A stretch of DNA of 64,000 bases from Halorubrum trapanicum (lineage in GTDB: Archaea > Halobacteriota > Halobacteria > Halobacteriales > Haloferacaceae). Location: contig NZ_AP017569.1 of assembly GCF_002355655.1 (NCBI RefSeq), positions 1,488,001 through 1,552,000 of the forward strand, in the 5' to 3' direction. Positions 18,892 to 21,441 of this stretch are shown one piece after another. The notes below the pieces were generated by a model. The model was given only the letters and a program-made list of their open reading frames with translations. It was not told the DNA's origin and made no database searches. The translations under genes and the position numbers were made by a program. Each line of letters opens with the position of its first letter. Within the stretch, counting starts at the first letter, position 1.

Positions 18892-19539
18892 CTACAGCAG
18901 TCCTTCCTCTTCGGCCAACAGTAACCCTTCCAGCGTCGCGTCGTTCGTCGGCGGCTCGCGGGCTATCTCCAGTGCTTCGTCGACCGGGACCGCCCGCGGG
19001 GCGAGGAACTCGTTGCTGTCGTGGTCGACGTCGACCGGCGCTAACCCCTCCGCGAACACGTAGCCGCGCTTGTGGCGCAACACGCCGGTCGAACACCACA
19101 CCTCCTGGAGCAGCGAGGTCGACGACGGCGCGAAGCCGGTCTCCTCGGCGAGCTCGCGCGCGCCCGCTTCCGTGTATGACTCGCCGGACTCGACGATCCC
19201 CGCGGGGAGCTCCAGCTGGGTGTTCCGGACGGTGGGGCGGTACTGCTCGACGAACAGCACCCGGTCGTCCGCGACCGCGACGACGACCGTCGCGGGCGAC
19301 AGCTCCGCCCAGTAGTAGTTCTTCTCCGTCCCGTCGGGCTGCTCGACGCGGTCGTAGCCGCCGACGAACCACCCCTCATCGTACTCGACGACGACCTCCG
19401 TCACCGGCCACTCCGGCTCGCCCGGCAGCGAGTGGCTGCGGCCGTCCGAGAACGCCGGCAGGTCGCGGAGGTCGGCGGCCGGGGCGTCGGGGTCGGCGGG
19501 GCCGTCGCCCGCGCCGGGGCCCGGTCGCTCATCGGTCAC
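18892..19539 (-). CDS. NUDIX hydrolase, ADP-ribose pyrophosphatase-like
   Basis: Protein of 215 aa. The NUDIX box is complete: GIVESGESYTEAGARELAEE followed by TGF. Upstream, VLFVEQYRPTVRNTQLELPAG matches the ADP-ribose/sugar-nucleotide hydrolase subgroup. The enzyme should split a nucleoside diphosphate derivative, most likely ADP-ribose. The GTG start at 19539 overlaps the end of the upstream gene by four bases, so the two are translationally coupled. About 20 proline- and aspartate-rich residues precede the conserved domain. Confidence 0.88.
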   Translation of the reverse strand: MTDERPGPGAGDGPADPDAPAADLRDLPAFSDGRSHSLPGEPEWPVTEVVVEYDEGWFVGGYDRVEQPDGTEKNYYWAELSPATVVVAVADDRVLFVEQYRPTVRNTQLELPAGIVESGESYTEAGARELAEETGFAPSSTSLLQEVWCSTGVLRHKRGYVFAEGLAPVDVDHDSNEFLAPRAVPVDEALEIAREPPTNDATLEGLLLAEEEGLL

Positions 19540-19919
19540 GGGCGGACCACCTCCGCGTGGTACGCCTGGCCGTCGCGACGCACTCGCACCCCGGTCTCCG
19601 TCGCGGCGTCCGGCACCTGCCGGGTGAGCGCGTCCACCTCGTCGAACGGGGTGTGCGTGAACCACTCCTTCATTCCGTACGGGCCGGTCTGGTACCCCGC
19701 GGAGCGCCCGTCGTCGCTCTCTATCGCGCCGATCAGGTACGGGTACCGCCGGTCGGAGACGTTGTTCACGTCGGCGGCGGTGCCGTTCGTCTCGATCGGT
19801 TCGACGGTGAGGTAGTACGGGTCGCCGCTGCCGAGGTAGCTGGGGAGGGCGCCGAGCGCGAGCAGCGCGACGACGACCAGGGCGATGGCGACGAGGAGGT
19901 TCCGGGTGACCCGGCGCAT
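19536..19919 (-). CDS. membrane-anchored protein, function unknown
   Basis: Protein of 127 aa with one N-terminal membrane segment (LLVAIALVVVALLALGALP) and an outer or soluble domain of about 95 residues (YYLTVEPIETNGTAADVNNV, YPYLIGAIES, GPYGMKEWFTHTPFDEVD). It is the first gene of a two-gene unit with the NUDIX hydrolase (four-base overlap). Similar proteins exist in haloarchaea as far as I recall, with no known role. Confidence 0.7.
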   Translation of the reverse strand: MRRVTRNLLVAIALVVVALLALGALPSYLGSGDPYYLTVEPIETNGTAADVNNVSDRRYPYLIGAIESDDGRSAGYQTGPYGMKEWFTHTPFDEVDALTRQVPDAATETGVRVRRDGQAYHAEVVRP

Positions 19920-20042
19920 GGTCGCCGTACGGTCCCGCGGGGAATACCGGTTTCGACCCGCGGGGGCGCGGTCGGCGAAACGGCGGCCGGACCCGGCGCA
20001 GCGCGGCGACGCGTTTTACACCGCGGCGGCCCTGTCGAGGGT

Positions 20043-20999
20043 ATGGAGTACCGGTTCGAGCTGGCGCTCTGCGCCGCGCTCGAATCCCCCGACCGCGTCG
20101 TCGCCCGCCAGCTCGGCGCAGGGGTCGAAACGCCGGGGACGCGCATCGTCGACGGCTGCCTGCTGTCGCCGGGACCGGGCTTCGACGACCGCGCCGCGAT
20201 CAGCGCCGAGCGCATCCCGGACCCCGCTATCGAGGCCGCCGTGGGTCCCGGCGAGGCCGTGCCCGTCGCCGAGGCGTTCGACCTCCCGCCGGACCGGGCC
20301 GCCGCCGTCGTCGAGCGCGCGGTCGAGGTCGGCTACCTCGAACGCGAGCGGCGGAACGGGCGGGACGCCGTGCGCGCCACCGCCCGCTACCCGGAGGACT
20401 GGGTCGGCGAGCTGGTCGCCGTCGAGAACAAGCCCGACCTCGGGACGCCCGGCGACCTGGAGGCGCAGTTGCGGTACGACGCGGCGCTCGGCCTGTTCGA
20501 CGAGGTCGTCCTCGCGACCGCCTCCTACGTCACCCGCGCGCACCTCAACCGGATCCCCGACGCGGTCGGGGTCTGGCGGTTCGACCCCGAGACCGGGGCG
20601 CGCGAGGTCGTCCGCGAGCCGACGCCGCTCGACCCGGACGCGCCCGGCGTCGAGATCCGGGCGGAGCGCCCCTCCCGCACGGAGGTCGCCTTAGTCGATC
20701 CCGAGGCGAAGGCCCGCAAACGGCGGCGGATCGCCGAGCGCGCGTACGGGAAGGGGTGGCGCCCCGACCCGCCGGCGTGCGCGCACGGCGAGGCGACCGC
20801 CGACGGGCGGCCGCGCTGCGCGCACTTCGACCGCGTGGTCGACCCCGGCCGCGAGTGCGGGAGCGGGTGTCCGGCCTTCGAGCCCGCCGACCCGCCGGAC
20901 GCGGAGCGCGACCGCCTGCGCGACGAGCGCACGGCGTGGGTCGCGGACCCCGACGGGGGCGGACCGCGCCGCCAGTCCGGGCTCTCTCGGTACCTGTGA
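20043..20999 (+). CDS. DUF5787-like protein; possible PD-(D/E)XK fold with cysteine cluster
   Basis: Protein of 318 aa. Residues about 60-115 resemble a winged helix. The central segment GELVAVENKPDLGTPGDLEA has an E-x-K motif (E128, K130) followed by a helix and strand (LFDEVVLATAS), as in PD-(D/E)XK nucleases. The C-terminal part has cysteines at 246, 259, 272 and 276, and the N-terminal part has C10 and C39. An N-terminal Cys plus a C-terminal Cys cluster around such a core recalls Cas4/AddB iron-sulfur nucleases (inference only). Haloarchaeal homologues are, I believe, annotated DUF5787. No neighbouring repair or CRISPR genes. Confidence 0.75.
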   Translation: MEYRFELALCAALESPDRVVARQLGAGVETPGTRIVDGCLLSPGPGFDDRAAISAERIPDPAIEAAVGPGEAVPVAEAFDLPPDRAAAVVERAVEVGYLERERRNGRDAVRATARYPEDWVGELVAVENKPDLGTPGDLEAQLRYDAALGLFDEVVLATASYVTRAHLNRIPDAVGVWRFDPETGAREVVREPTPLDPDAPGVEIRAERPSRTEVALVDPEAKARKRRRIAERAYGKGWRPDPPACAHGEATADGRPRCAHFDRVVDPGRECGSGCPAFEPADPPDAERDRLRDERTAWVADPDGGGPRRQSGLSRYL

Positions 21000-21033: not shown

Positions 21034-21441
21034 ATGGACGAGATCGAAGACGTCTTCGTGGCGCGACTGATGTCGACGGACCTCCACACGGTGACCCCGG
21101 ACACGCTGGTCGAGGACGCGGCCGCGGTGCTGCTCGAGAACGACATCAGCTCGGTGCTGGTCGTCGACGACGACGGCGACCTCGTCGGGATCTTAACCTC
21201 GACGGATTTCGTCGACATCGTCGCGAAGAGCCAGCCGAAGGCCGAGACGACGGTCGAGCGGTACATGACGCGGGACCCGATCACGGCGGGCGCACAGGAC
21301 GACGTCGCGGCCGTCGCCGCGACGATGCTCGAACGCGGCTTCCACCACGTGCCGGTCGTCGACGGGGAGACGCCCATCGGCATCATCACCACCTCCGACT
21401 TCGCCGCGTACGTCTCCTCGCCGGAGTCGGTCTCGGCGTAG
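21034..21441 (+). CDS. CBS-domain pair protein
   Basis: Protein of 135 aa consisting of two CBS motifs: residues about 10-65 (MSTDLHTVTPDTLVEDAAAV ... LVGILTSTDF) and about 75-130 (YMTRDPITAGAQDDVAAVAA ... PIGIITTSDF). Such stand-alone Bateman modules bind adenosine nucleotides and regulate partner proteins. The partner is unknown, and the gene stands alone with its own TATA element. Confidence 0.9.
   Translation: MDEIEDVFVARLMSTDLHTVTPDTLVEDAAAVLLENDISSVLVVDDDGDLVGILTSTDFVDIVAKSQPKAETTVERYMTRDPITAGAQDDVAAVAATMLERGFHHVPVVDGETPIGIITTSDFAAYVSSPESVSA

Follow-up and report, generated by a model that had tools for sequence, protein, structure and literature searches.

A predicted PD-(D/E)XK nuclease with an inserted winged helix: the haloarchaeal family DUF5787

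We propose that the haloarchaeal family DUF5787 consists of PD-(D/E)XK nucleases that are encoded on the chromosome, are inherited vertically, occur as two ancient paralogues and are probably related to repair. One member, paralogue A, is encoded in the 64,000-nucleotide stretch of Halorubrum trapanicum DNA that we analysed (the window). We give this reading as a whole a probability of about 0.6, and its parts differ in confidence. Judging by predicted structures and residue conservation, DUF5787 is very probably a nuclease, and its predicted substrate is likely to be DNA rather than RNA. A role in DNA repair, which is argued by analogy, appears evenly balanced. The architecture is unusual, in that a winged helix lies inside the nuclease core and a module with four cysteines (Cys4) forms the C-terminus, and the protein is not a relative of Cas4 or AddB.

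The gene and its predicted fold

The window protein belongs to the DUF5787 family (PF19100), which it matches with an E-value of 2.7e-93 and 313 bits, against a gathering cut-off of 25. DUF5787 is the only family listed by hmmscan for this protein up to an E-value of 10, and an NCBIfam search yielded a chance match only. In translation, the open reading frame ends with a stop codon at 20997-20999 on the forward strand. Most of the Halorubrum relatives displayed have a TTTTA-like box at approximately the same position, and this recurrence supports the start codon given in Table 1. The box also suggests a leaderless transcript beginning at that ATG. The next gene, at 21034, encodes a CBS-domain protein and has its own TTATA-like box just 3' of the DUF5787 stop codon, so the two genes are probably on separate transcripts.

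Table 1. Features of the DUF5787 gene in the window and the basis of each assignment
Feature	Position	Strand	Basis
TATA-like box TTTTA, 27 bases 5' of the ATG	20014..20018	+	direct sequence reading; putative promoter
DUF5787 paralogue A, 318 aa, proposed PD-(D/E)XK nuclease	20043..20999	+	ORF, Pfam, model
Nuclease core part 1: helix A (E6, C10), strand 1 (R22 Q23 L24 G25), strand 2 with D37 (20151-20153)	20043..20186	+	AlphaFold, conservation
Inserted winged-helix domain (residues 58-114), lying between core strands 2 and 3	20214..20384	+	VIA-align, model order
Nuclease core part 2, residues 119-196: strand 3 ending E128-N-K130 (20424-20432), helix B (Q142, D146), strand 4, MmcB-aligning stretch	20397..20630	+	model, profiles, conservation
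C-terminal module, residues 220-300: helix with conserved AERAYGKGWR; Cys4 C246-x12-C259-x12-C272-x3-C276, putatively metal-binding	20700..20942	+	model, conservation

The AlphaFold model of paralogue A, built with 60 family sequences, has a pLDDT of 90.9 and a pTM of 0.87. According to DSSP, its elements are a helix (residues 2-13), two strands (19-25 and 35-43), the insert, a third strand (121-129), a helix (139-149) and a fourth strand (154-159). This is the helix-strand-strand-strand-helix-strand order of the PD-(D/E)XK core, with the insert between strands 2 and 3, and the same order is found in a separate model of paralogue B, which is weaker (pLDDT 77.2).

It is important to consider how the fold was assigned. 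A Foldseek search of the PDB with model A gave no match at an E-value of 0.001 or better (best 0.015), and a sequence search of solved structures with the window protein gave none. The assignment thus rests on VIA-align, which re-examines the candidates supplied by Foldseek itself, and on BFVD. The highest-ranking VIA-align match of model A is 3dnx, with a Z-score of 10.1 and an rmsd of 3.5 over 134 of 146 residues. Next come PaqCI (8.0), XisH (7.4 and 7.2), NucS (6.3), EndoMS (6.1), Card1 (6.1) and SfsA (5.8), all of which we take to be PD-(D/E)XK nucleases; several of these scores are below 8, where by the tool's own warning a match may reflect a merely common arrangement, whereas that to 3dnx is above it. 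For model B, the leading matches are PaqCI (11.0), 3dnx (10.0 over 145 residues), XisH (8.5) and Can2 (7.7). In BFVD, the top two matches of model A are MmcB proteins (E-values 4.1e-4 and 6.8e-4); model B has none at 0.001 (best 0.015), and an MmcB-like protein ranks fifth. A CDGSH protein that was the best match of the family profile among solved structures (E-value 0.46) was judged to be due to chance.

The preliminary description, made from the DNA sequence, had suggested a PD-(D/E)XK core in this protein, and the AlphaFold models, the VIA-align matches and the conservation of D37, E128 and K130 all bear this out. It had also placed a winged-helix-like part before the nuclease. A winged helix is indeed present, as the VIA-align matches over the insert are MarR- and ArsR-type proteins; however, it lies inside the nuclease, between D37 and E128, and does not precede it.

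Conserved residues and the relationship to MmcB

We counted residues in an alignment of 113 sequences, comprising 82 of paralogue A (including the window protein and its own-genome copy) and 31 of paralogue B. The relatives behind the A set are 80 of 327 and are skewed to Halorubrum, and of the 31 B loci, 30 are the best-scoring ones of a PF19100 search of the class genomes. D37, E128, K130, Q142 and D146 are identical in all 113 sequences. Every sequence thus has the superfamily motif, in which strand 2 carries an Asp and strand 3 carries (D/E)xK. An E-x-K by itself is a chance-level motif, and it is the conservation in 113/113 that makes it more than chance here. At position 6, all sequences that extend over it have Glu (81/82 A, 25/31 B).

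Among the cysteines, C246, C259 and C276 are likewise invariant and C272 is present in 112 of the 113 sequences, the exception being a gap; the spacing C-x12-C-x12-C-x3-C is the usual form of paralogue A (73/82). C10 is Cys in 74 of the 82 A sequences (otherwise seven Ala and one Ser) and in 28 of the 31 B sequences (otherwise gaps). C39 is found in 66/82 A and in 0/31 B, so it is not a feature of the whole family. Since the fixed cysteines are the four C-terminal ones, the cluster is probably self-contained, with C10 optional. The residues named in the preliminary description (E128, K130 and the four C-terminal cysteines) lie where it placed them and are conserved; C10 and C39 are likewise present in the window protein. 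Its proposal of additional N-terminal cysteines does not extend to the whole family, given the substitutions of C10 and the absence of C39 from B. In three genomes (G031, G044 and G045), the match to paralogue A is split around residues 182-188 (217 in G045), which suggests an insertion there in this group.

The best-supported relative is MmcB, a repair protein of bacteria. Sequence comparison places the protein of structure 3dnx with MmcB: a Sphingomonas MmcB, which itself scores with the MmcB family model PF06319, finds it by phmmer with an E-value of 2.4e-26. When the profile of the 113 DUF5787 sequences was compared with 19 MmcB sequences using hhalign, the score was 34.9 (P 1.6e-4, probability 50), and E128 and K130 were paired with the E-x-K of MmcB; with insert columns removed, the score was 35.1 (probability 58) and D37 was paired too. 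By comparison, 12 unrelated haloarchaeal families scored 8 to 17.4, reversed controls 15.5 to 16.1, and 30 haloarchaeal Cas4 proteins 12.6 (probability 0.1), which is null level. On this basis MmcB is the closest relative that the fold and profile comparisons identified, although a distant one. The reverse comparison, MmcB against DUF5787, is weaker (22.7, probability 2.9), and for model B, PaqCI equals or exceeds 3dnx. Moreover, DUF5787 is not MmcB as defined by PF06319: the window protein does not reach the cut-off of that model, and neither does any of 246 genomes of the phylum. The D-x-K-W motif in helix B of most MmcB sequences that we retrieved is absent from DUF5787, which has Q142-L-x-x-D146 instead.

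Distribution and gene neighbourhoods

Of 292 Halobacteria genomes, 289 contain PF19100 matches, which agrees with the earlier suggestion of an unassigned protein common in haloarchaea, and the family is still a DUF. There are at least two places with matches in 286 of the 292, some of which are pieces of one gene. A close copy of the window protein (48 to 100% identical) occurs in 68 of 69 genomes, the exception being G021, and the genome of the window protein has a second copy at C1:635071-635856. In a tree of the 113 sequences, the clades A, which contains the window protein, and B are separated by a long branch with a support of 1.0. DUF5787 is missing altogether from three small Halobacteria genomes, G021, G217 and G285 (families f5 and f11), and these may have branched off early, in which case they would date the origin of the family.

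Outside the class, no relative was confirmed in a phylum sample of 294 genomes. Of the 53 that match, one (G480) is outside Halobacteria, and its match (E-value 2.9e-4) lies in a reading frame that we identified from its sequence as methionyl-tRNA synthetase. Viral contigs gave 21 pattern matches and no true relative, the phage records searched contained no DUF5787, and the plasmid records searched contained one match, a Natronorubrum protein annotated as DUF5787 and 35.9% identical. Given its near-universal presence in the class and its rarity on mobile DNA, DUF5787 appears to be a core gene of the chromosome that is passed on vertically.

The two paralogues differ in their neighbours. In 27 of 31 loci, a MutT-like NUDIX gene lies upstream of B in the same orientation, at a distance of 89 to 1323 bases. 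A second set of 11 longer loci, which covers several families and shares some genomes with the first, has this gene in 10. This NUDIX protein weakly matches models of RNA pyrophosphohydrolase and of MutT alike. A second, weakly NudE-like NUDIX gene (18892-19665 in the window) lies close to paralogue A and is divergent from it. A NUDIX gene of this kind, together with a small protein, is kept alongside A in 16 of 45 compared loci; unlike the pair of B and NUDIX, it is not class-wide. In 13 of 25 compared loci, A is near a homologue of aIF2-gamma, in a region that also has Rpb7-type and PIN genes. Because the neighbours of A change between lineages, we rejected a general reading of its surroundings as an operon.

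Several bacteriophages present related arrangements. In five jumbo phages, AD1, Y3, JA11, Yoloswag and SNUABM_5 (L168, L169, L174, L176 and L177), the gene order is NUDIX, MmcB and dTMP kinase, an arrangement similar to that of B in haloarchaea, with its upstream NUDIX gene. As these five phages look related, we did not treat them as independent cases. Five further phage loci that we retrieved have no NUDIX gene next to MmcB. The NUDIX protein of JA11 is 28% identical to the haloarchaeal one. In phage PaBG (L175), a gene for a SprT/Spartan-like protease takes the place of NUDIX. The MmcB homologue of Erwinia phage Yoloswag (L176:448-936) is annotated as a putative transcription elongation factor, probably wrongly. 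In Anoxybacillus phage A403, a DUF1064 gene annotated as a Holliday junction resolvase (L171:323-736) is directly 5' of an MmcB-like gene, so that two nuclease genes of one superfamily stand in tandem.

Possible function and comparison with known systems

The conserved residues and the modelled domains are consistent with the following mechanism. D37 and E128, together with E6, would hold Mg2+, and K130 would orient the attacking water, such that D37, E128 and K130 carry out metal-dependent cleavage of a phosphodiester with E6 and Q142 in support. The inserted winged helix may grip duplex DNA beside the scissile strand. The Cys4 site, which could bind Zn or an Fe-S cluster, would brace the C-terminal module, and this module may act as a brace or as a reader of branches. 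By analogy with what has been proposed for MmcB, the likely task of the enzyme is to cleave DNA that is abnormal or branched, as part of repair. According to a review (PMC9578287), MmcB is an SOS-regulated PD-(D/E)XK endonuclease that shields Caulobacter from mitomycin C and may deal with crosslinks in concert with translesion synthesis.

The preliminary description had favoured a nuclease like Cas4 or AddB, that is, a RecB-family exonuclease in which C10 and three C-terminal cysteines hold a [4Fe-4S] latch. A PD-(D/E)XK core accompanied by cysteines is what this would lead one to expect; in addition, C10 is conserved in most A sequences and in all 28 B sequences that cover the position, and a Tyr stands three residues after the Gln of helix B in 52% of the A and 65% of the B sequences. 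However, the cysteines of Cas4 and AddB are arranged as one N-terminal and three C-terminal ones in the passages available to us (PMC3466216), while in DUF5787 C10 is replaced in 8/82 A sequences although the four C-terminal cysteines stay fixed. The profile score for Cas4 is at null level, where that for MmcB stands out, and hmmscan lists no Cas4 even at an E-value of 10. Cas4 and AddB chains are also absent among the 50 VIA-align matches listed per model, an absence on which we place no weight. The affiliation is thus not supported by profile or cysteine layout, and we regard an Fe-S exonuclease of this type as very unlikely.

The same fold might instead serve an RNA endonuclease that processes tRNA, rRNA or mRNA. 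The genes for aIF2-gamma, Rpb7-type and PIN proteins near A would suit such a role, as would the resemblance of the NUDIX protein next to B to RNA pyrophosphohydrolases. However, in the locus that we read (L074), A is on the strand opposite to the aIF2-gamma cluster, winged helices are typical of DNA binding, and DNA is what the closest relatives (MmcB, NucS and PaqCI) act upon, so we consider an RNA substrate of this kind unlikely. It is also conceivable that DUF5787 is a transcription regulator, a pseudo-nuclease that binds specific sequences through its winged helix and has lost catalysis. The winged helix is clear in the VIA-align comparison and two paralogues are present in nearly all genomes, both of which fit a regulator. 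Lost catalysis, however, does not predict catalytic positions that are invariant in both paralogues, and we find this explanation highly improbable.

Within the preferred reading, that of a DNA repair nuclease, a more specific scenario can be imagined. The paralogues would be two lineage-specific DNA endonucleases, universal in haloarchaea and selective for lesions or structures, each an MmcB-type nuclease with an inserted winged helix and a Cys4 module. B would be paired with the adjacent MutT-like NUDIX protein, combining cleaning of the nucleotide pool with cutting of damaged DNA, and the arrangement would have recurred independently in jumbo phages as NUDIX, MmcB and thymidylate kinase. 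We offer this scenario as a speculation that is more doubtful than the general proposal.

If DUF5787 is a repair nuclease, it would fill a gap in the picture of genome maintenance in haloarchaea, organisms noted for surviving radiation and desiccation. In the parts of one study available to us (PMC7776575), Haloferax volcanii is described as lacking the HerA-NurA resection nuclease, and deletion of its NucS is reported to have no phenotype. Since it specifies the residues of the active site, a metal site and a pair of paralogues, the prediction is directly testable in the genetic model H. volcanii. DUF5787 is a real and conserved family that is still unnamed, and nowhere described, in the portions of the literature that our searches on haloarchaeal RecB-like and core nucleases, MmcB and winged helices covered.

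DUF5787 shares features with several known systems. Nucleases of the Cas4/AddB/Dna2 type also have a PD-(D/E)XK core and a C-terminal cysteine cluster, but their cysteines follow a 1+3 layout, as opposed to 0(+C10)+4, there is no profile similarity to Cas4, and the literature passages note no inserted winged helix. The N-terminal nuclease domain of PaqCI (8em1) is alike in fold, but PaqCI is a Type IIS restriction enzyme with other domains, whereas DUF5787 is a core chromosomal gene. NucS/EndoMS is, like the proposed enzyme, an archaeal PD-(D/E)XK repair nuclease; to our knowledge, its accessory domains differ and include neither a Cys4 module nor an inserted winged helix. The short MmcB proteins that we retrieved are also without these two additions and have D-x-K-W in helix B. 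Nevertheless, the MmcB family (PF06319, including SPO1766, the protein of 3dnx, and Caulobacter MmcB) shares with DUF5787 the PD-(D/E)XK core, the aligned D/ExK and an LP..G...D stretch after strand 4, and its structure 3dnx is the top fold match for paralogue A and is matched over almost its whole length by paralogue B.
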